Below are positions 19,460 through 33,551 of a stretch of DNA of 64,000 nt, piece by piece. This DNA is from [Clostridium] aerotolerans DSM 5434 (GTDB lineage: Bacteria > Bacillota > Clostridia > Lachnospirales > Lachnospiraceae), in NCBI RefSeq assembly GCF_000687555.1, contig NZ_JHWJ01000002.1, forward strand, positions 186,001-250,000, in the 5' to 3' direction. The position numbers and the translations under genes were made by a program. The stretch's first letter is position 1. Every line of letters starts with the position of its first letter. Under the pieces are notes generated by a model. It had not been told where the DNA came from and ran no database searches. It worked only from the letters and a program-made list of their open reading frames with translations.

Positions 19460-20008
19460 TTATTTCAGTAAATCAATTTCGTTTAGCATCTCATCGCACC
19501 ATGCGATTACAGACTCTGCAGAAATGATTCCATATCTTAGTGGGGCATGGATAAAAAATCCCTGCTGTGTTTCCAGTGCCCCTTCCTTTTGTTTCATATA
19601 TTCTTCCATTTTACCATATCCATCGAGTTTTTTCACGTGATCTTCTTTGTATTCTAAAATCATGCTCCTGATCTCATCTTTTTGAAGATCCTTAAAGAAG
19701 GAAAGCTTTAATAGAAACTCCGATCTGGCAGGCTGGTAATGGACCGGTTCTTTCAGCCAGCTTAAGAATTCCTCCCTTCCTTTCCCTGTTATGGCATACT
19801 TCTTTTTCCTGTCATTCGTCTCCTCCTCCACCCGCTCAATGAGACCTTCATCCTGCAGCACTTTGAGCACCGGATAGATATGGCCGTAATTTTCATTCCA
19901 GAAATGGGCGATGATCCGGTCGCAGTATTTCTTAATATCATAGCCGGTACAGGGGGAATTATTTAAAACTCCTAAAATAGCGTAACGTGTTTTATTCTTC
20001 ACCGACAT
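19460..20008 (-). CDS. PadR-family transcriptional repressor
   Basis: A 182-aa PadR regulator: winged HTH at residues 5-85 (RYAILGVLNNSPCTGYDIKKY, then HIYPVLKVLQDEGLIER) and a C-terminal helical dimerisation domain, so subfamily s1-like. ATG 20008 has AAGGAG 7 bp upstream and overlaps the end of the glycosyltransferase gene by 17 bp, giving coupled translation. PadR proteins repress detoxification or efflux genes until a phenolic or other toxic ligand binds. Its likely sites are the two ATATCA/TGATAT dyads over the operon promoter at 21211-21253, making it autoregulated. Confidence 0.88.
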   Translation of the reverse strand: MSVKNKTRYAILGVLNNSPCTGYDIKKYCDRIIAHFWNENYGHIYPVLKVLQDEGLIERVEEETNDRKKKYAITGKGREEFLSWLKEPVHYQPARSEFLLKLSFFKDLQKDEIRSMILEYKEDHVKKLDGYGKMEEYMKQKEGALETQQGFFIHAPLRYGIISAESVIAWCDEMLNEIDLLK

Positions 20009-21197
20009 CTTTTTTCTCCTTCCAGGCTGCAAGCAGCTTATGAATCTCATCTGCTGCCTCTTTCATGCCTGCTGTTTTCTCAAACTCAAGACGCAGCTTC
20101 TGACAGGCTTTCTCATAATCTGGCTCATTCATGACCTCCCAGGCCTTTTCTTTTATAATAGAAGAAGTCGACTCCTTCCATGTCATCCTGATTCCGCAGC
20201 CCATAGATTCCACCTGCTTTGCCACCAGGAACTGGTCATTGACCATGGGGAACAGGAGCATAGGTACACCGCTTAGAATGGCCTCTTTGACGCTGTTTAA
20301 GCCACTGTGGGTAAGAAATAAGCTGGCATGCTTTAAGACCTCCAGCTGAGGCACATACGGCCTTACGATGAAATTGGCTGGGATATGAGTAAAATCAGAT
20401 ATCTGACACTTCTTTCCCACAGAAAGAACCACTACACCATCAAAGTCTATAAAGGCTTCCATGCACATTTCATAAAATTCTGATATCTGATTGTTTATGG
20501 TCCCAAGGGAAATGTAAATAACCTTCTTATCCTGAAGCTGTTCTATCGGGAAATCTCCCATGTCCTCTTCCCGGAGCATTGGGCTTACAAACCGGTAGGA
20601 ATCGTCAAGAAACTGACTGCCTGGGTTAAATGCCTTTGAAGTATAAACAATATTTAAGTCCCCCTGATTCTGAAAAAAAGAGAGAGGATCAGGAACCGGC
20701 AAGTGATAGGAAGAGCAAAACCCATTAAGTCTTTGGTAAAACTCATCAAGCTGGGGATGGGTCCCCCGCTCTAACATGTTGTCAGGAATGGGAAGGCTGC
20801 TTAATGCAAAGGAGGAAACGGAACCAATCACAGGCACGCCAAGAATACCTCTTAAAAACTGTCCGGCTCCCAGAACGCTGTCACAAATCAGACAGTCAAA
20901 GGTCCTCTCCTTCCATACCTCTAAAATTACCGGGATCAGTATCTCATCAAGACGGATCATATATTCCAGTATGGTGAAAAACGGGTGGTTTCCCATAGGA
21001 CGATATCCCTTATAAAATTCATCCAGTTCTTTCCCTCCATCTATGCAAATAGCCCCAGCCTCCGAAAGTGCATTACAAAAAGAATCAGCTCCAAAATACC
21101 ATACCTTATCTCCTCGGTTCACAAGCTCTTCTACCAGAGGAAGGGTGGGATTTACATGACCGTGAAGATTGCCATTGACAAACAGTATATTAGACAT
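19992..21197 (-). CDS. GT1-family (macrolide-type) glycosyltransferase
   Basis: A 401-aa GT-B fold UDP-sugar transferase of the YjiC/MGT type. The N-terminus has the acceptor-domain signature NLHGHVNPTLPLVEEL; the C-terminal donor site has the run RPYVPQLEVLKHASLFLTHSG and GVPMLLFPMVNDQF, typical of the NDP-sugar motif. Such enzymes glycosylate and so inactivate macrolides, flavonoids or other small hydrophobic compounds. It heads an operon with a PadR repressor and a 91-aa protein, which suggests inducible detoxification of an outside compound. AGGAG lies 6 bp before the ATG. Confidence 0.88.
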   Translation of the reverse strand: MSNILFVNGNLHGHVNPTLPLVEELVNRGDKVWYFGADSFCNALSEAGAICIDGGKELDEFYKGYRPMGNHPFFTILEYMIRLDEILIPVILEVWKERTFDCLICDSVLGAGQFLRGILGVPVIGSVSSFALSSLPIPDNMLERGTHPQLDEFYQRLNGFCSSYHLPVPDPLSFFQNQGDLNIVYTSKAFNPGSQFLDDSYRFVSPMLREEDMGDFPIEQLQDKKVIYISLGTINNQISEFYEMCMEAFIDFDGVVVLSVGKKCQISDFTHIPANFIVRPYVPQLEVLKHASLFLTHSGLNSVKEAILSGVPMLLFPMVNDQFLVAKQVESMGCGIRMTWKESTSSIIKEKAWEVMNEPDYEKACQKLRLEFEKTAGMKEAADEIHKLLAAWKEKKDVGEE

Positions 21198-21384: not shown

Positions 21385-23115
21385 TTACATCCCAGGTCCG
21401 GATTTATTCTTTCCCGAACTTTTTGATGAACCAGGCCCTGCCTCCTGGTCAAAGGAGGGGTGGGCGGAAACTGTGGTGGGGGTGGTTGCCGCCGGAGCCG
21501 TGGTGGGAGCTGCTGTCGTAGGTGCTGCGGTGGTTGGTTGTGTGGCTGGCTGAGTAGCTGCCTGTGTGGTTGAGTGAGTAGCAGCCGGTGTGGTTGGCTG
21601 GGTACCTGCCTGAGTCGTTGGCTGCTGGGCACCTTTTGTCTCATCCTTTTTTCCGGTTCCATTGGAAGTGGTCAGAGACTCGGTTCCTGGCAGATGATAA
21701 CAAAGGACCGGAATTCCTGCACTTATGTTCTCAAAAATGGTCTTTGCAACGGCTGGAGGCAGGTTGATACAGCCATGAGAGCCGCTGGTCTTATAGATAG
21801 AACCTCCAAAGGTGCTCCGCCATTTGGCATCGTGAAGACCGATATTGCCGTTAAATGGCATCCAGTAATCCACAGGAGTCCTGTAATTTTCTCCCTTAAG
21901 TGTGGCATTTCGTTCTTTATAAGTAAGGGAGTAAGCTCCTGCTGGAGTGGACCAGCCCTTTGATTCATTGCCTGATACGAAATCAGATTCCACAACCAGC
22001 TTGCCGTCTTTATAATAGTAGATATGCTGAGCCGTCAAGTTGATCTCCACATATGTATTTCCATAATCCTTAGCGCCTCTGCTGGCGCCCCTCTGCTTAT
22101 ACACTGGCTCTCTTACCTGACTGTTACCGGAACGAATCAGTTCCGCCAACTCGTCTGCCTCGGCACTCTGATTAATTCTCCAGCCATAGCTTCCTCCGGT
22201 GATTTTCACATTCTGTCCGGTGGAGGTGGTGAAATTCTTGGCTTTGTAGGCCGTATCATAGGTACTTGCCAGCTCTTTTACATAATCACTGACGGATTTA
22301 CTGTCTAAATAAACCTTGCCGCTGTCATCGGTTTTGACCCATTTGGAGATGGTATCTCCGCTTAGTACTTTTTTCTCATCGCCGAAGTTATATGTAATGG
22401 TTGTGTTGACATACTTATTCATGGCCTGAACCTTGCTTACAAGCCCTGGATCATTGGTCGGCACCTTAGGAGAGATATAAGCTCCCGCCTCGTCTAAATT
22501 AAGCTCCGGCTTTAAATCCATAACTGCATTTGATATCTCTGACTTCAACTTTTCCGGGTTTAATTCTTTGCCATCCCTGGCCGGTTTAATCTGGTAACCC
22601 TGACCGGAAACGTAATCAGAAATTGATGCATTCTGGGCCTTATCCTCTTCTTCTACCTTTAAGCAGGATAATCCGCTTACTACAGTGTCAAATTTATTCT
22701 CGTCATACTGAATCATAGTTCCGATTTCAAATGACTGGGGCTTCCTTAAGTGCTTTGCCCAGGAAAGGGGCTTTTGCTCCCCCAGCAAGGATTCCAGCTT
22801 TCCGTCGAATACGGCTTCCAGACCGATATCCATGCCCTTAATCTCTTCCGTGGTTCCTCCGCGTTCCTGTAAGGTAAGCTTATAATCATCAATGGTCAAG
22901 GCAATCATCTTTTTGACTTCCATCACTGATTTTTTTGAAACGTCCATTCCATTGATAACGGTTTTAGGGAAAAACACCTTCTGATATGACCTGCCAACCT
23001 GTATGTAAGCAAAAGCAGCAATCAGCGCTGCTGCCATAATTCCGCCTCCGACTAATGCCAGCCCCGATACTCCAAAGGACTTCTTCTTCCTGCTGCGCTG
23101 TTCATGTTTTTCCAT
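21385..23115 (-). CDS. Membrane-anchored L,D-transpeptidase (YkuD) with Thr/Pro-rich tail
   Basis: A 576-aa cell-wall enzyme forming 3-3 peptide cross-links. A transmembrane anchor at about 17-40 is followed by a repeat-like PG_binding_4 region, and the YkuD catalytic domain at about 345-475 with active-site SHGCINLPP. After residue 480 comes a low-complexity tail of Thr, Pro and Ala (for example AAPTTAAPTTAPAATTPTT), as in wall-spanning linkers, ending in a Ser/Lys/Gly-rich end. A second, tailless paralogue lies at 28351. The long open frames opposite the tail are shadows of its repeats. Confidence 0.9.
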   Translation of the reverse strand: MEKHEQRSRKKKSFGVSGLALVGGGIMAAALIAAFAYIQVGRSYQKVFFPKTVINGMDVSKKSVMEVKKMIALTIDDYKLTLQERGGTTEEIKGMDIGLEAVFDGKLESLLGEQKPLSWAKHLRKPQSFEIGTMIQYDENKFDTVVSGLSCLKVEEEDKAQNASISDYVSGQGYQIKPARDGKELNPEKLKSEISNAVMDLKPELNLDEAGAYISPKVPTNDPGLVSKVQAMNKYVNTTITYNFGDEKKVLSGDTISKWVKTDDSGKVYLDSKSVSDYVKELASTYDTAYKAKNFTTSTGQNVKITGGSYGWRINQSAEADELAELIRSGNSQVREPVYKQRGASRGAKDYGNTYVEINLTAQHIYYYKDGKLVVESDFVSGNESKGWSTPAGAYSLTYKERNATLKGENYRTPVDYWMPFNGNIGLHDAKWRSTFGGSIYKTSGSHGCINLPPAVAKTIFENISAGIPVLCYHLPGTESLTTSNGTGKKDETKGAQQPTTQAGTQPTTPAATHSTTQAATQPATQPTTAAPTTAAPTTAPAATTPTTVSAHPSFDQEAGPGSSKSSGKNKSGPGM

Positions 23116-23864: not shown

Positions 23865-24389
23865 TTATTCTTCCACCAGAAAGCCTTTATTCTTTAATTC
23901 CTGTTGGATTCTGTCTAAATTCTTTATGGAATCCGCTGCTACCGTGTGGTAATGGCAGCCATTGGTAAGCGCCTTTAAAGGCTGGTCCTTCGATGTCTCC
24001 AGGGCTTCTACAAATTCCTCTGCGTCCAACCGGTTATTGATGATTAAATCCACATGGATCTCCCCATAGACCTCATGCTCTATGGATACGTCAAGAAGTC
24101 TGCCGCCATAATCCACAATGGTCTGAAGCTCACTTAAGGTATCTTCTGTCCTGTGTGCAGAGCGAAAGACTCTTACAAAGCTTTCCTCCTCTTTTCCTGG
24201 CTGATGGCGAAGCACATATCCTTTGTTGGTGGAAAGAATCTCCGTCTGCTCTGCCCGCATCAGGGCCACGTCCTGTACAATGACCTGCCGGCTCACTCCC
24301 ACCCGTTTTGCAAGCTCTGTGCCGGAAACAGGCATTTCCTCCTGGTTTAAGATTTGTATTATTTTTTGTCTGCGTTCCACTCCATCCAA
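23865..24389 (-). CDS. niaR: NiaR-type niacin-responsive repressor
   Basis: A 174-aa protein with an N-terminal HTH_11 domain (SGTELAKRVGVSRQVIVQDV) and a C-terminal 3H domain; the histidines that name it are seen in IEHEVYGEIHVDL and GCHYHTVAA. NiaR (YrxA) represses NAD synthesis and niacin uptake genes when nicotinate is present. It starts at a TTG; GGGAG within the last codons of the ABC ATPase gene gives the ribosome site. It is the last gene of an operon with a nucleoside phosphorylase and an ECF transporter, which ties that transporter to NAD precursors. Confidence 0.88.
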   Translation of the reverse strand: MDGVERRQKIIQILNQEEMPVSGTELAKRVGVSRQVIVQDVALMRAEQTEILSTNKGYVLRHQPGKEEESFVRVFRSAHRTEDTLSELQTIVDYGGRLLDVSIEHEVYGEIHVDLIINNRLDAEEFVEALETSKDQPLKALTNGCHYHTVAADSIKNLDRIQQELKNKGFLVEE

Positions 24390-24395
24390 TTTTTG

Positions 24396-26108
24396 TTACT
24401 CCCTGCCTTTATCTTTAATATCGTCTGTTGTTAAAAATATTCCCTGGTATCCCAATGCCTCACACAGCCTTGTCATATGAGGCTGTTCAAGCCTTGCCGT
24501 ACTTAAGCTGTCCTTTTCATAAAAAACAGCTTCTTTCGGCCCGTCTGCCAGCACCTTTCCATGAGCCATGACAATGACCCGGTCAAAGTATTCTGCTACA
24601 AAGTCCATATCATGAAGAATCGCCAGGACAAATACTCCCTTGTCACTGAGCTTTTTTATGATTGATCCCAGAAGCTTACGCCCTTTTATGTCCTGAGCAA
24701 TGGTAGGCTCATCTAAAATCAGCACCTTGGGCTCCATGGCAATAACAGAAGCAATGGCTACCATCTTACGTTCTGAAAGGTCGAGATCATAAGGATTTTC
24801 CTGCTCCCATTTCGTCATACCAACCAGGGAAATGGCTTCTCTGGCCTTTTTTTCTGCTTCTTCCCGGCTCATGCCAATATGAAGAGGTCCTACCATTACC
24901 TCATCAATTACCTTGTTTTTAAAAATCTGATCGTCAGGATTCTGAAACACGTAGCCCACCACACCCGCCAGCTTTGCAACCGTTTTGCTGGAAATATCTT
25001 CTCCGTTTAAAAGGATTTGTCCGTCCCCCGGCTTTAGCAATCCTTTCATAAGCTTCACTAAGGTGGTTTTACCCGCACCATTCTGGCCAATGATGGCTGT
25101 GGGCTGTTTTATTAATTTGAGAGACAGGCTCTGGATCACCAGCTTTCGTGAGGTATAGCCAAAATCCAGCTCCTGAATTTCAAAAAGTTCTTCTTGTTCC
25201 TTTGAGACCTCTTCTTCCCATAAAGCCCCTTGTTTTTCTATCTCCCTGCCGGAAAGGGTTTCTGGAAAGCTGTCCCTTTTCTCCACTGTTTGTGATAAAG
25301 TCACCGGATACTCTTTTTGATCCCCTGCTTCCCTGTAAATTTGAAGCTTCTTACACACCCTTGTATAGACCGGCGGTTCTACTCCATACTGGTCTAAATC
25401 CTCTCTGGAGAAAATCCGTTCCGGTGTATCATAGGCAATCTGTCTTCCCTGGTGCATAAGAAGGATCTTATCGCAGTATTCTGCCAGCTTTTCCATCTTG
25501 TGTTCTACCATCAGTATGGTGATGCCGGATTGTTTTAAGGCCTCTACCACCTGAAAGACTTCTTCGCTTCCCTGAGGGTCAAGCTGAGAGGTTGGTTCGT
25601 CAAGAACAATGACTTCCGGCTCCATGGCCAGGATGCTTGCAATTGCCACTCTCTGGTTCTGACCTCCCGATAAGTCAAATGGGTTCCTGTTTTTATAGTC
25701 TAAAATGTCCAGACGGGAAAGATTATCCTCCACCCGTCTTATGATTTCCTCTCTGGGAATCCCAAGATTTTGAAGACCAAAGGCAACCTCCTCAAACACC
25801 GTTTCCTTGGCTCCTGATAACTGGTTAAATGGGTTTTGAAACACCAGTCCCACATGACGGCAAAGCTTCGCTACCGGTGTTTTAGCCGCCTCCATACCAT
25901 GAATCATGAGCGTTCCGCCGTAGGCTCCCCGGAACATGGAGGGCACCAGTCCCACAAAGGCCTGACATAGAGTGCTCTTCCCCGCCTTATTTTCCCCGAT
26001 GATTCCAATAAACTGACCCTTCTCCACAGTAAAATCAATTCCATCAAGAGCCAGCTTGTCCGTATGAGGATAGCGGTATTTTAACTGCTTCACTTCAATC
26101 AGAGCCAT
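24396..26108 (-). CDS. ECF transporter ATPase, two fused ABC domains
   Basis: A 570-aa double ATPase equal to EcfA plus EcfA'. Domain one (1-235) has Walker A GENKAGKSTLC, signature LSGGQNQRVAIA and Walker B VIVLDEPTSQLD. Domain two (about 310-550) has GQNGAGKTTLVK and LILDEPT, but its signature reads DLSERKMVAIA instead of LSGG. A charged linker joins them. The start at 26108 has GGAGG 8 bp upstream and overlaps ecfT by 10 bp. It powers the S component encoded two genes upstream. Confidence 0.92.
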   Translation of the reverse strand: MALIEVKQLKYRYPHTDKLALDGIDFTVEKGQFIGIIGENKAGKSTLCQAFVGLVPSMFRGAYGGTLMIHGMEAAKTPVAKLCRHVGLVFQNPFNQLSGAKETVFEEVAFGLQNLGIPREEIIRRVEDNLSRLDILDYKNRNPFDLSGGQNQRVAIASILAMEPEVIVLDEPTSQLDPQGSEEVFQVVEALKQSGITILMVEHKMEKLAEYCDKILLMHQGRQIAYDTPERIFSREDLDQYGVEPPVYTRVCKKLQIYREAGDQKEYPVTLSQTVEKRDSFPETLSGREIEKQGALWEEEVSKEQEELFEIQELDFGYTSRKLVIQSLSLKLIKQPTAIIGQNGAGKTTLVKLMKGLLKPGDGQILLNGEDISSKTVAKLAGVVGYVFQNPDDQIFKNKVIDEVMVGPLHIGMSREEAEKKAREAISLVGMTKWEQENPYDLDLSERKMVAIASVIAMEPKVLILDEPTIAQDIKGRKLLGSIIKKLSDKGVFVLAILHDMDFVAEYFDRVIVMAHGKVLADGPKEAVFYEKDSLSTARLEQPHMTRLCEALGYQGIFLTTDDIKDKGRE

Positions 26109-26872
26109 ACACGTATCCTCCATATGAGGGAAGCAAAGAGAAGAGCAGCCATGAAGGCGATAAATCTCTTATCTGCTCCCCGTAATTTACGATCCTGTAA
26201 AAAGGTCTTTTTCTCCTTGGAATCAAAGCCACGGACTTCTAAGGCTATGGCCCTTTCCCTGGTATTGATTAAAGAACTGTTTACCACAGGAGAAATCAGA
26301 GGAAGAAATGCCCTGGCTCTTACCAGTATATTGCCCTCTGTCTCCATGCCCCTGCTTCTCTGGGCATCCAAAATGGTATTCATGGTTCCCATCATCTGAG
26401 GGATGATCTGAAACACCGAACAGATCATATATCCGAACCTGGGAGAAAATCCAGCCTGTTCTAAATCATCCACAAGAACTGCCGGCCTGGTGGTCAGCAC
26501 AAGGACCGCAAAGGCAAGGAGCATATTTAAGATATTAAGTCCTATTTTTAGTGCATATAAAAGTCCTTCCCTGTAAAAAATGAGAGGTCCCAGGGTAAAT
26601 AGAATCTGTTCATTTTTCTGGTTAAAGAGACCGTGAATCAGAAATACCGTAAGAATAATGGTAAATGAAAACGCGATGAGAGGCAAGATTCTTTTTCCGA
26701 TTTTTCCTGCTGCAATCAGACAAAAGCTTAATAAAAGGCTAAGGACATATAAATGGAAACCGCCTCCGATGAGAGGAATGGCAATGGCTGCTGCAATGTA
26801 AAATAACTTGGAAAAGGAATGGAGCCTGGTTAAAAAGGTATCCTGATCCACATAAAGACTAATGCTTTTCAT
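26099..26872 (-). CDS. ECF transporter transmembrane component EcfT
   Basis: A 257-aa membrane protein with four to five hydrophobic helices in the N-terminal two thirds, and the coupling-helix motif AQRSRGME near residue 165, the A-R-G signature by which EcfT grips the ATPases. A second motif, ALEVRGFDSKEKKT, lies near 210. It overlaps the ATPase gene and follows the S component by 18 bp, so the module is dedicated to this operon rather than shared. Confidence 0.92.
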   Translation of the reverse strand: MKSISLYVDQDTFLTRLHSFSKLFYIAAAIAIPLIGGGFHLYVLSLLLSFCLIAAGKIGKRILPLIAFSFTIILTVFLIHGLFNQKNEQILFTLGPLIFYREGLLYALKIGLNILNMLLAFAVLVLTTRPAVLVDDLEQAGFSPRFGYMICSVFQIIPQMMGTMNTILDAQRSRGMETEGNILVRARAFLPLISPVVNSSLINTRERAIALEVRGFDSKEKKTFLQDRKLRGADKRFIAFMAALLFASLIWRIRVWL

Positions 26873-26890
26873 AATTAACCGCCTTTTTCA

Positions 26891-27493
26891 TTAATCCAGG
26901 CTTACAACTTCATCATCAATATCATACAGTGAGGTAAGTTTCCTGGGAAGTCCTTTCACAATAGCAAACACGATCAAAAGAGTAATAAACTTGTCCGGCA
27001 CATCCACCACCACTTCATCTAAAAATGAGCCTAAGAAAACGGGAAGGCCAGAAGCCTGTGACCATGCAAACACTGCATCTCCCCAGATATTCCCGGTGGT
27101 TCCTCCCCAGAAGATAATGTTTAAAGGGGTGGAAATAACGACGGCTGTCAAGCCTGTGACGCAGGCTGTGAGTAAGGCACCCGGCAATGATTTCATATGG
27201 CCCAGTCTTGCCATGATTCCTGCTGCTGCACCGATTCCAAGGCTTGTTAAGGCATATACAAGAGTAATGGAATCCCCGGTGGTAAAACCAAAGATTAAGT
27301 TATTGGCTGCTCCGCAGATCCCGCCGATGACAGGCCCTCCAAGTATTCCGCCAATGCAGGTTCCAATGGAATCCAGCCAAAGCGGCAGCTTTAAAACAGA
27401 AGCAAATAATTTTCCCAGATAATTGATACCGATACAGGCTGGAATCAGCACAAAGCAGGCTGCATTCCATTTCGTTTTAAATAACTGTTTCAT
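26891..27493 (-). CDS. ECF transporter substrate-binding S component, substrate unknown
   Basis: A 200-aa protein with about six membrane helices and Gly-rich turns (GTCIGGILGGPVIGG, LGIGAAAGIMARLG) as in S components. ATG 27493 lies 1 bp after the phosphorylase stop, so translation is coupled. It is not BioY, ThiT, RibU or PanT by sequence as far as I can see. The operon holds an NP-I phosphorylase and NiaR, so a pyridine nucleoside, niacin or another nucleoside is the best guess for the ligand. Confidence 0.82.
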   Translation of the reverse strand: MKQLFKTKWNAACFVLIPACIGINYLGKLFASVLKLPLWLDSIGTCIGGILGGPVIGGICGAANNLIFGFTTGDSITLVYALTSLGIGAAAGIMARLGHMKSLPGALLTACVTGLTAVVISTPLNIIFWGGTTGNIWGDAVFAWSQASGLPVFLGSFLDEVVVDVPDKFITLLIVFAIVKGLPRKLTSLYDIDDEVVSLD

Positions 27494-27494
27494 T

Positions 27495-28250
27495 TCATAT
27501 TCTCCCTTCCTGGTTCTGACTGATCCGAACAAATGCTTGAAGTGCCGTAAGAATCTCTGCTTGTTCTCCCCTCATCATAGCTGATTCGCCGCCGGTATAA
27601 AGGTTTATGTTCTCTTCTAAGGATTCCTCATACTGGACTACGGTATTCAGGATGGAGGCAGTTTTTACTCCCCGTAAGCCTCCTGCCACAAACAGCGCCG
27701 CAGTTTCCATATCTGAGCCAAGAACTCCCTTTTTTGACCAGTACTCACATATTTCCTTTTCTTCATCAATATAAAAGCTGTCATGGCTTCTTACGATCCC
27801 TGCATGATAGGGAACTCCCGATTCTATGGCACCTTCCATTAAGGCCATAAAAAGCTGGGGATCCGGGACTGCCGGGTAAGCGGAATCTATATAGGAAGAG
27901 GAGGCCCCATCATTACGAACGGCACCATTTGCTATGATTAAATCTCCCAGAGAAACGCCCTTTTTAAGAGCACCACAGCTTCCAATCCGGATCATGGCCC
28001 TGACTCCCATGCGGTGAAGCTCTTCGACTGCAATGGCTGCCGATGCGCCTCCGATTCCGGTGGATACCGCCATCACCTCCACCCCCTGAAAGCTTCCCTT
28101 TAAGCTTCGAAATTCCCGGTTATACGCCAGCTCCCTTACATCCTCCAAATAGGGGGCAATCCGGTCAAGCCGTTCCGGGTCTCCGGGTAGAAGGGCAAAG
28201 GGGGCTGCCTGTTCCTTGAAAAGCTTTAAATGCGGCATAATTTCTGACAT
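27495..28250 (-). CDS. NP-I family nucleoside phosphorylase
   Basis: A 251-aa phosphorylase of the uridine/purine nucleoside type: LLPGDPERLDRIA at residue 17 (phosphate loop), STGIGGASAAIAVEELHRMG at about 69, RIGSCGAL, and the ribose/purine-binding SDMETAALF near 195. It splits a nucleoside with phosphate into base and ribose 1-phosphate. ATG 28250 is chosen (AAGGAG 9 bp upstream); a longer frame reaching 28508 runs back through the promoter dyad and the upstream gene and is not real. First gene of pnp-ecfS-ecfT-ecfAA'-niaR. Confidence 0.9.
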   Translation of the reverse strand: MSEIMPHLKLFKEQAAPFALLPGDPERLDRIAPYLEDVRELAYNREFRSLKGSFQGVEVMAVSTGIGGASAAIAVEELHRMGVRAMIRIGSCGALKKGVSLGDLIIANGAVRNDGASSSYIDSAYPAVPDPQLFMALMEGAIESGVPYHAGIVRSHDSFYIDEEKEICEYWSKKGVLGSDMETAALFVAGGLRGVKTASILNTVVQYEESLEENINLYTGGESAMMRGEQAEILTALQAFVRISQNQEGRI

Positions 28251-28284
28251 CAATGTCTTCTCCTTTCTGCCATTTAATGTCATC

Positions 28285-28343
28285 AATGTAACACAAAGGG
28301 ATTGTCTTGTCAATCTGTTGCCAGGTGACAAGACAATCCCTTT
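28285..28343 (-). promoter_or_regulatory. Promoter and large dyad of the phosphorylase-ECF-niaR operon
   Basis: TTGACA (28308-28313), 17 bp and TACATT (28285-28290) on the minus strand. A perfect inverted repeat with 18-bp arms (28295-28312 and 28326-28343; core GATTGTCTTGTCA) and a 13-bp centre covers the -35 and most of the spacer. As RNA it would be a strong hairpin but it lacks a T-run in the direction of the genes. Its TGTCTTGTCA/TGACAAGACA halves look like a repressor site; NiaR from the same operon is the obvious candidate. Confidence 0.75.
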
Positions 28344-28350
28344 CTTTTCT

Positions 28351-29760
28351 TTAATAAAAGCAGATAACCGGTATTCCGGAATAAACAAGACTGTAAAGGT
28401 CCTTCGCCTTTTTGGGAGGCAGATTGACACAGCCATGGCTTCCGCTGTTTTTATAAATAGCTCCGCCAAATTTACTTCTCCAATTGGCATCGTGAAAACC
28501 GATTCCACCGTTAAATGGCATCCAGAAATCTACATGACTTTCGTATTCATAGGTTCCGTCCGCCTTTTTATCTCCACGAAGAATCCGGTCCGTCTGCTTA
28601 TAGGATAAGGTATAGATTCCTTCTGGAGTGGTATAATTCTTTGATACATTGCCAGTGACACAGGGCGCGTCCCAGACAAGGGCTCCATCCTTGTACATAT
28701 AAACATGCTGGGCAGACATATCTGCTTCCACATAGGTTCCGCCCCAGTCATTGTTCCGGTCTGCGGCAGCTTTTATATACTTGGGTTCCTTCGTAATGCT
28801 TTGTCCGCCGCGAATGGCTGCGATCAGCTCCCCGACCTCAGCCGGCTGGTTGATCTGCCAGCCATAAGCTCCTGATACGTTTAAATCCCTGCCGCTTGTG
28901 GTACGGAAATTTCTTCCCCTGCCTGCAGTGTCGTACTTATCCCCCAGGGTCTTTACGTAGGCGGCTGCCTTTTCCTGATTCACCTGAATGGAGCCATCTG
29001 CCCCGGCGGTAATCCAGGTGCTTAGCTCCTCTCCTAAAAGAACCTCGGTTCTGTTTCCAAAGGCATATGTAATCTGCATCTCCCTGACCTTGTTAAGTGC
29101 CTCGCACTGTGCCTTTAAGCCAGGGTCATCCTTAGTAACAGTAACTGTGTCATAGCAGCCGGAATCTTCTAAGCTGATTTCCCGAAGCTCCTGGTTAAGC
29201 CCAGCTTTTACTACTTCCTCCAGCTTTCCCATGTTCACGCTGTTTCCCTGTACCTCCGGAAGAATGGTGAAGGGCACTCCCTGTTGAAAGGCGGATATCC
29301 TTGCATTAACCGTAGTTACGATTCCCTGTCCGCTTACAAAAGAAAGGCCATTCAGCTTTTCCTTTAATTTTCCTTCCTCAAAGGCTACCGTACTTTTTAA
29401 GCTGCGGCTGTTGTCCTCGGCAGGTCCTGCCACGCGGCCTGAGGCATTCTGCTCATCCAGTATGCTCTTTAATCCATCGGTGATCACCACCTGATATCCG
29501 ATATCAGAGCCCTTGATGACCTCAGCCTTTCCGTCTTTTGTCTTAATCGTTAAGTTATATTCTCTTCCATAAAAGCCTTCTATCTGTACCTTTGCTTCTT
29601 CCACTGTCATACCGCCCACAAAGACTCCATTGATCTTTGTTCCAGGCACAAACTTTAAGGAAGCATCTGCCAGTGCACTCCCCTGTCCTGCCAGAATTAA
29701 TACCCCTGTCAGAACCAGGACTTTAGCCATTGTAAGTACATGATTTCTTTTCCTGTCCAT
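28351..29760 (-). CDS. Secreted L,D-transpeptidase (YkuD)
   Basis: A 469-aa paralogue of the enzyme at 21385. A signal peptide (about residues 10-31, ending AGQGSALA) leads to a PG_binding_4-like region and a YkuD domain with active-site SHGCVNLPP near the C-terminus; there is no Thr/Pro tail. I prefer ATG 29760, giving a normal signal peptide; ATG 29802 would add 14 residues and has only a weak ribosome site. Forms 3-3 cross-links in peptidoglycan. Monocistronic; its stop is 7 bp from the dyad of the next operon. Confidence 0.88.
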   Translation of the reverse strand: MDRKRNHVLTMAKVLVLTGVLILAGQGSALADASLKFVPGTKINGVFVGGMTVEEAKVQIEGFYGREYNLTIKTKDGKAEVIKGSDIGYQVVITDGLKSILDEQNASGRVAGPAEDNSRSLKSTVAFEEGKLKEKLNGLSFVSGQGIVTTVNARISAFQQGVPFTILPEVQGNSVNMGKLEEVVKAGLNQELREISLEDSGCYDTVTVTKDDPGLKAQCEALNKVREMQITYAFGNRTEVLLGEELSTWITAGADGSIQVNQEKAAAYVKTLGDKYDTAGRGRNFRTTSGRDLNVSGAYGWQINQPAEVGELIAAIRGGQSITKEPKYIKAAADRNNDWGGTYVEADMSAQHVYMYKDGALVWDAPCVTGNVSKNYTTPEGIYTLSYKQTDRILRGDKKADGTYEYESHVDFWMPFNGGIGFHDANWRSKFGGAIYKNSGSHGCVNLPPKKAKDLYSLVYSGIPVICFY

Positions 29761-29848
29761 TCCCTCAAATCCTTTGCTGTATTTTATGGAAATCATTTCC
29801 ATACCTGTCTAGGGTAACACGATTTTAAGGGAATAACAAGCGTTAAAA

Positions 29849-32769: not shown

Positions 32770-32784
32770 CAACAGGCAGAGCCT

Positions 32785-32877
32785 GAAAGTTTCCTACGCT
32801 GGCATTATCCAGATCAGGTTACAGGGTTCAAAACAAGATGGTTTTATCTCAGCCGGACTTCATCCAGCACCCCTTTT
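32785..32877 (-). promoter_or_regulatory. TPP (thiamine pyrophosphate) riboswitch
   Basis: The THI-box core is clear on the minus strand: GGGGTGCTGGATG, GGCTGAGAT, ACCCTGTAACCTGATCTGG and ATAATGCCAGCGTAGGAAA. This forms the two-arm aptamer binding the pyrimidine and the diphosphate of TPP. An intrinsic terminator follows at 32741-32769 and controls the thiamine-precursor uptake operon. The aptamer begins directly at the stop codon of the HD-GYP gene. Confidence 0.97.
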
Positions 32878-33551
32878 TAATTTTCTCTGAAAGTATACAT
32901 CGAACCAGCGGGAATGTCAAGCTGGCCCGGTCCCAATGGGCACTGAATGGCTGCTGTCACTTTCTCCCAGTTAAGCAGCGCCAACAGACCGATATCCGGG
33001 TCAAACATTTTTCCTAAATTATTTTTAATTTCCTCATAACAGTAATCCAGGGAATAGGCCTTTCGGTAACCCCGGTCAGAAGTCATGGCATCTATAGAAT
33101 CACAGATAGCTATAATCCTGGCTCCCAGGGGGATGTCTTCTCCTTTTAACCCCTTTGGATAGCCTTTGCCGTCATAACGCTCATGATGGTATAGAACAAT
33201 ATCCTTTAATTCATTTAGATGCCTTGATTTACTTAATATATCGGCTCCTGTCTGGGGATGCTTTTTGATTGCTTCCCATTCTTCCGGTGATAGCCTGTCC
33301 GGTTTGTTTAAAACCGCATCAGGAACCCCTATTTTTCCAATATCGTGAAGATGGGCCGCCACATGGATCTTATCCACCTCTTCCCTTTTAAGCCCCAAAA
33401 CCTCAGAAAGGGCCAGCGCCATTTCGCTGACCCTTTGAGAATGCCCGGCTGTATAAGGGTCCTTGGCATCCAGTGCACTAACGATACACTCGATGATCTC
33501 ATGGTAATCTATCCCATTACTGCATAGCTCAAATCCGGTTTCTATATTCAT
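32877..33551 (-). CDS. HD-GYP domain phosphodiesterase
   Basis: A 224-aa stand-alone HD-GYP protein: HSQRVSEMA, AAHLHDIGKIGVPD (HD) and YHHERYDGKGYPKGL (GYP), all metal-binding residues present. Such proteins hydrolyse cyclic dinucleotides, mostly c-di-GMP. There is no sensor or receiver domain, only a short N-terminal segment. The final codons encode the thiamine operon promoter, and the stop abuts the riboswitch. No functional link with thiamine is known to me. Confidence 0.9.
   Translation of the reverse strand: MNIETGFELCSNGIDYHEIIECIVSALDAKDPYTAGHSQRVSEMALALSEVLGLKREEVDKIHVAAHLHDIGKIGVPDAVLNKPDRLSPEEWEAIKKHPQTGADILSKSRHLNELKDIVLYHHERYDGKGYPKGLKGEDIPLGARIIAICDSIDAMTSDRGYRKAYSLDYCYEEIKNNLGKMFDPDIGLLALLNWEKVTAAIQCPLGPGQLDIPAGSMYTFREN
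32892..32920 (-). promoter_or_regulatory. Promoter of the thiamine operon inside the HD-GYP gene
   Basis: TTGACA (32915-32920), a 17-bp spacer and TATACT (32892-32897), nearly consensus, lie within the last 15 codons of the HD-GYP gene. Start of transcription is predicted near 32885, just ahead of the riboswitch. Confidence 0.8.

Follow-up and report, generated by a model that had tools for sequence, protein, structure and literature searches.

A NiaR-linked ECF transporter operon of [Clostridium] aerotolerans as a candidate salvage system for vitamin B3 ribosides

The 64,000-nucleotide stretch of the [Clostridium] aerotolerans DSM 5434 genome analysed here (positions 186,001 to 250,000 of contig NZ_JHWJ01000002.1; hereafter the window) carries, on its minus strand, a five-gene operon that joins a nucleoside phosphorylase, an energy-coupling factor (ECF) transporter and the repressor NiaR. 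The operon is confirmed as real, its link to NAD metabolism is strong, and uptake of some form of vitamin B3 is its very likely function. With a probability of about 60%, we consider it a self-contained B3 salvage system in which a riboside of the vitamin is imported, split by phosphorolysis and kept under the control of NiaR; gene association suggests that the imported substrate is a pyridine riboside cleaved by the phosphorylase.

The genes run from 28250 down to 23865 in the order NP-I phosphorylase, S component, EcfT, fused EcfA and niaR, all on the minus strand. The NP-I nucleoside phosphorylase (NP; 27495..28250; Pfam PNP_UDP_1, E 7e-35) starts with an ATG at 28250, just downstream of AAGGAG, and stops at 27495. 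It is followed after 1 bp by the ECF S component, the proposed B3 riboside binder (26891..27493; ATG at 27493, stop at 26891), and then after 18 bp by the transmembrane coupling subunit EcfT (26099..26872; CbiQ, E 4e-22), which overlaps an EcfA with two ABC ATPase domains in one chain (24396..26123, alternative ATG at 26108; ABC_tran in two stretches, ECF_ATPase models). After a further 6 bp lies niaR (23865..24389; TTG start at 24389, stop at 23865), encoding an HTH_11 and a 3H domain (E 4e-32). These coordinates and families bear out an earlier sequence-only reading of this DNA, which had described five adjacent genes with gaps of at most 18 bp or overlaps; the span given there ended at 28343, beyond the NP start, taking in the operator described below. 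An Rfam scan of the operon returned no element above the gathering score. The host genome measures 4.73 Mb, with an estimated completeness of 99.97%. In a neighbourhood survey, for which 80 of the 87 loci detected by a single scan for S relatives were retained (numbered with an L below), genes within 5 kb of S were counted as neighbours. The association of the transporter genes goes beyond chance, as EcfT and EcfA both lie this close to S in 78 of the 80 loci, the two exceptions being contig ends.

In the proposed pathway, S, together with its own EcfT and fused EcfA, would import a pyridine riboside, most likely that of nicotinamide or nicotinic acid. NP, to judge from its family and position, would then use phosphate to convert the riboside into ribose 1-phosphate and nicotinamide or nicotinate. 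The base would reach nicotinic acid mononucleotide (NaMN) via a PncA-like protein and PncB, both encoded elsewhere in the genome, whose activities, including deamidation, are predicted. When nicotinate is plentiful, nicotinate-bound NiaR would, as characterised NiaR proteins suggest, repress transcription at a double operator over the -35 element. In relatives, a PfkB-type kinase found in the place of NP would phosphorylate the riboside directly.

The regulator, a 3H protein, aligns nearly end to end with NiaR of Thermotoga maritima (1j5y, E 8e-35; the aligned sequence of 9ebr is identical to that of 1j5y) and with NiaR 7cv0 (E 6e-32). The metal and niacin ligands of solved NiaR structures are His, Glu, His and His in the available part of their description (PMC7713382), and all four are conserved in the window protein (His79, Glu87, His146 and His148, T. 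maritima numbering). It is also the single 3H-domain protein of the whole genome. The conserved ligands, together with an operator on the promoter, support the earlier proposal that NiaR acts as a local repressor of the operon.

This candidate operator is a double site at 28303..28335 on the minus strand, TGTCTTGTCA - 13 nt - TGACAAGACA, with arms at 28303-28312 and 28326-28335 and an inverted repeat extending a few bases beyond both. A promoter-like TTGACA - 17 nt - TACATT (28285..28313, minus strand) agrees with the consensus at 10 of 12 positions (0.3 expected in shuffled sequence) and carries a TG in front of the -10; its -35 element lies inside the right operator arm. By eye, the niaR-bearing relatives inspected show a similar arrangement of operator and promoter, with TGTCTTGTCA before the first gene and its inverse often 13 bases on. 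The core TGTCTTG[T/A]CA lies at most 250 bp upstream in 38 of the 79 loci that have upstream sequence, comprising 29 of 31 with niaR and nine of 48 without (Fisher p 3e-11, for loci that are not independent). The remainder of those loci, used as a control, holds 2 core matches in 1.17 Mb, so that 0.03 loci would be expected by chance; because the core was read by eye from the same loci, the count shows conservation and is not an independent prediction. The two operator arms are the only core matches in the 64-kb window. The 4.73-Mb genome contains the exact double-arm pattern once and the TGTCTTGACAC form of the site nowhere.

Agreement with the published pneumococcal NiaR operator, a consensus of 22 positions in the part of the source available (PMC5343564), is high for a Roseburia locus and an Oliverpabstia locus (L024 and L029, both 19/22) and for a kinase-type locus (L034, 20/22). 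The window's upstream region reaches 15/22 (p 0.57) and does not pass. Across 81 upstream regions, six of which (L003, L005, L006, L011, L044 and L047) were scanned from the S start and not the operon start, 26 pass p 0.05, half of them with niaR (13 of 32 such regions) and half without (13 of 49). The putative NiaR-type operator at the window's promoter is thus recognized through the core that it has in common with better-matching relatives. The core is kept in three loci of the window's S clade (defined below) that have no niaR nearby (L024, L029 and L033), and one operon with no niaR close by, that of Lacrimispora celerecrescens (L062), does not retain the two arms intact, a single case.

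The S component matches ECF_trnsprt in Pfam slightly below the cut-off (E 9e-7; 29.5 bits against 30.7), and its top NCBIfam model, the CD3073-family ECF S component (NF045596), scores 88.1 bits against a cut-off of 180; a literature search turned up no function for this family. The predicted structure (pLDDT 90) adopts the S component fold, with ThiT, RibU and FolT as nearest folds and a best Foldseek E of 0.005. Fold searches did not separate S specificities, with these three scoring alike, and NiaX is not named in their lists, which counts neither way. Clustering of S with a known non-pyridine family, an outcome that the sequence-only reading had named as contrary to it, was not seen, given that S falls below the CD3073 cut-off and its fold match is unspecific. 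A dedicated energising module, EcfT and two EcfA ATPase domains, is encoded beside it. The nearest S is found in the record Clostridium sp. 12(A) (97% in one comparison, 99% in another), beside relatives from Lacrimispora and Hungatella. Of the 69 S rows placed in a tree, those of the niaR and kinase loci group, together with some NP-only loci, in one supported clade (99/100, 38 rows); this is the window's clade. The absence of niaR from most homologous operons had likewise been named in advance as contrary evidence, and holds literally for the survey, where 31 of 80 loci carry niaR, but not within the window's clade, where 24 of 38 tree rows do.

NadA, a key enzyme of de novo NAD synthesis, was not found in a search of the host genome that was positive in 12 of 14 control genomes, and PncB is clearly present (685 bits against a cut-off of 469). 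One of the genome's three isochorismatase-family proteins is PncA-like, matching the putative nicotinamidase 3s2s (E 1e-13) and 3o90 (E 5e-11), and retains an Asp-x-His pattern; its score against the NCBIfam nicotinamidase model (34.9) stays under the cut-off of 174. The earlier claim that the operon supplies a NAD precursor is supported by the NadA and PncB results. Among related bacteria, NadA occurs in 60 of the 150 genomes of a family sample, but in none of the seven sample genomes (the host included) with a close S ortholog above 330 bits (p 0.04). It is found in nine of 50 tested locus genomes, a chosen subset of the 80, one of these being a partial match with an internal stop. Within the window's S clade, a single genome of 31 (28 in the tree and three near copies left out of it) has NadA, a difference from the family sample with p 2e-5 (loci L003-L050, likewise 1/31). 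This depletion is suggestive only, because the genomes are related, the two sets overlap in part and draft bins are numerous. PncB is present in 51 of 60 genomes tested. Its absence was looked for as a sign that the kinase of relatives makes nicotinamide mononucleotide or NaMN directly; among the ten kinase-locus genomes it is absent from four (L035, L039, L042 and L044) and present in six, and the gaps may reflect incomplete drafts.

The solved structures nearest to the phosphorylase are the Vibrio fischeri entries 4lnh and 4mch (4lnh E 4e-69 by sequence; 44-45% identity by fold search with an NP model of pLDDT 88.7). Their name, uridine phosphorylase, is entry annotation only, and the title of 4mch gives 6-hydroxy-1-naphthoic acid as ligand. 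The top NCBIfam models for NP are uridine phosphorylase (TIGR01718, 180.2 bits against an equivalog cut-off of 280.3) and the purine nucleoside phosphorylase DeoD (119.9 against 230), both scoring far under the curated cut-offs. His7, Gly23-Asp24-Pro25, Arg27, Arg45, Arg88 and Met181-Glu182 are invariant in 31 aligned NP proteins and common to Escherichia coli Udp and DeoD at the aligned positions; we take these to be the phosphate and ribose sites. Uracil recognition in E. coli Udp presumably depends on Gln166 and Arg168 (numbering likewise assumed) and an insertion after them. This segment and its insertion are absent from NP, and the positions aligned to the two residues vary among eight NP rows. 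The NP alignment also shows a gap where Asp204 of DeoD, presumably its base-protonating, purine-binding residue, would fall. A pyridinium base, already charged, leaves without protonation and would suit a pocket of this kind. Cleavage of nicotinamide riboside by E. coli DeoD, as a non-typical substrate, is reported in work cited in a portion of PMC3923242, which places this phosphorolysis within reach of the NP superfamily.

Support for a riboside comes mainly from the enzymes encoded beside S. Among the neighbours of S, NP is counted at 44 of the 80 loci, NiaR at 31, an isochorismatase-like protein (hereafter c6) at 22 and a PfkB kinase at 10. NP and the kinase never occur together (0/80; p 1.5e-4, though the kinase loci are mutually related), and one or the other is beside S in 54 loci, in Lachnospiraceae, Bacillaceae and Carnobacteriaceae. 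All ten kinase loci also carry NiaR and c6, and no NP ortholog is encoded elsewhere in their genomes (best score 214 bits, against 344 or more). In five of them (L035, L036, L039, L042 and L043), NiaR (HTH plus 3H) and the kinase share one frame of 483-505 aa downstream of EcfA, a possible repressor-kinase fusion whose domains a Pfam check confirmed on L035. For the L030 kinase, the top-scoring model, fructoselysine 6-kinase, stays under its cut-off. The exchange of NP for the kinase fits a riboside best, because each enzyme offers a route for using a riboside, and a free base requires neither. Of the earlier proposal that the operon imports a pyridine nucleoside and releases its base, the role in NAD supply is thus upheld, and the riboside and its splitting are suggested by these associations. 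A wider reading is more tentative, and we hold it at somewhat short of even odds: that this is a previously undescribed ECF importer for B3 ribosides with a modular intracellular step, taken by a phosphorylase in part of the lineages and elsewhere by a PfkB-type riboside kinase that lies behind, or is fused to, NiaR, the fusion being analogous to NadR and built from unrelated parts.

The c6 neighbour was also considered as a nicotinamidase and rejected, for it lacks the nicotinamidase metal site, presumably Asp-x-His...His, in the pattern of 1ilw; its catalytic-type Asp, Lys and Cys are conserved in 18 of 18 proteins. It is not near the window operon, and one of the three isochorismatase-family proteins of the genome matches any c6 query, at 23-25% identity.

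Several observations weigh against riboside salvage, and the NP, kinase and NadA counts lack phylogenetic independence and take in draft bins. Neither NP nor the kinase is found at 26 of the 80 loci, and operons of this kind are the main argument that the transporter takes up niacin itself (nicotinate or nicotinamide), as NiaX would, with NP recycling riboside from internal NAD turnover. S, EcfT, EcfA and niaR form operons with neither enzyme at L007, L015, L016 and L040. One of the first three genomes has an unlinked NP ortholog (344 bits); this lies in the L015 genome at G160:C8:71602-72339. Four Sporosarcina loci and one Lentibacillus locus carry the operator core before an S-T-A operon with no NP or niaR nearby, and an NP ortholog was not found in the Sporosarcina genomes of L065, L067 and L073, the first two of which have the core. 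NiaX provides a precedent, as a NiaR-regulated ECF S component and predicted niacin transporter in the available part of PMC5343564. However, a presumed riboside-acting enzyme stands beside S in the 54 loci noted above, NP and kinase apparently replacing each other, and in the window NP leads the operon at 1 bp from S, an arrangement that speaks against import of niacin alone. We consider this explanation unlikely, if still worth serious attention.

Less probable still is that the operon serves ordinary nucleosides (uridine or purine nucleosides) as a carbon source and recruited NiaR by chance in one lineage. No other protein of the genome matches the NP profile at E 1e-25 or better, so that NP could be a general phosphorylase, and the two models that it matches best describe enzymes of such substrates. 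Distant NP-S-T-A operons (in Anaerocolumna, Kineothrix and others) have no NiaR nearby; in eight of them the upstream gene clusters with a Crp/Fnr-type regulator (Pfam on L048). Outside the window's S clade, NadA occurs in eight of 19 genomes, which is the background rate. Against such a role, NP remains far below the cut-offs of both models (180 against 280 bits; 120 against 230), the core also precedes the Sporosarcina and Lentibacillus operons, and NadA is nearly absent from the window's clade. That the inverted repeat is the terminator of the preceding L,D-transpeptidase-like gene and not an operator is highly improbable: it is strong and directly follows that gene's stop codon, and a terminator scan limited to loops of 3-8, which a 13-nt loop would escape, found none, but no T run follows it, related sites match the published NiaR operator, and the core, which overlaps the -35 element, is kept 31-165 bp before the first gene of 29 niaR operons with varied upstream genes. 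The repeat could also serve as both operator and terminator.

Several known B3 systems come close to this operon. NiaX, a predicted niacin S component of streptococci and clostridia in the text available (PMC5343564), resembles the window's S as an ECF S component under NiaR control with a proposed role in B3 uptake; by description, the window's S differs in that EcfT and EcfA of its own are encoded next to it, along with a presumed riboside-acting enzyme. NiaY, described in the part available as a predicted niacin transporter under NiaR control in five genomes of Bacilli and Clostridia, is likewise a NiaR-regulated membrane protein with an overlapping host range, and on that partial description the window's S may belong to the same family. 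PnuC and NadR also salvage ribosides for NAD, and some NadR proteins join a DNA-binding part to a riboside kinase, according to a portion of PMC7221760; the 3H-PfkB fusions of relatives may join regulator and kinase likewise. Here, however, the transporter is of another class, ATP-driven by its architecture, the relatives' kinase is of the PfkB family, and in the window phosphorolysis would replace phosphorylation. NiaR-controlled ECF uptake of a vitamin thus has a predicted precedent, and the apparently exchangeable riboside-processing enzyme is unusual. In a search of open-licence literature, available in part, no ECF-type system acting on pyridine ribosides came up. A survey of gut bacteria considered NiaP, NiaX and NiaY for B3 and PnuC for the riboside and, in the part available, confidently found a known B3 transporter (NiaP, NiaX or NiaY) in only 25% of B3 auxotrophs (PMC6593275). 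The operon is a concrete candidate for a missing importer of this sort in Lachnospiraceae that lack NadA, though not claimed as the sole one. If it does act on ribosides, these would join niacin in vitamin exchange, and the reading suggests a substrate that can be tested both on an ECF S family so far unassigned and on the 3H-PfkB fusion.

S-like membrane domains also occur within long signalling proteins of Lachnospiraceae (L113:281-3880, L114:824-3538 and other frames of about 590-1620 aa). One, of 1199 aa, has Reg_prop, Y_Y_Y and HD domains, with a marginal 5TMR-LYT match over the S-like part, and a second is a hybrid histidine kinase of 904 aa; this may be a secondary use of the ECF S fold as a sensor. 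In the window, the operon is flanked at 21385-23115 and 28351-29802 (minus strand) by two long, similar genes that appear by eye to be L,D-transpeptidase-like and whose relatives form one cluster. At 19460-21197 (minus strand), a PadR-like regulator adjoins, by eye, a glycosyltransferase resembling macrolide-type UDP-glycosyltransferases. A thiamine pyrophosphate (TPP) riboswitch (32773-32884, minus strand, 68 bits) lies upstream of an apparent ABC transporter operon at about 29.8-32.4 kb, identified by eye and perhaps dedicated to uptake of a thiamine precursor.

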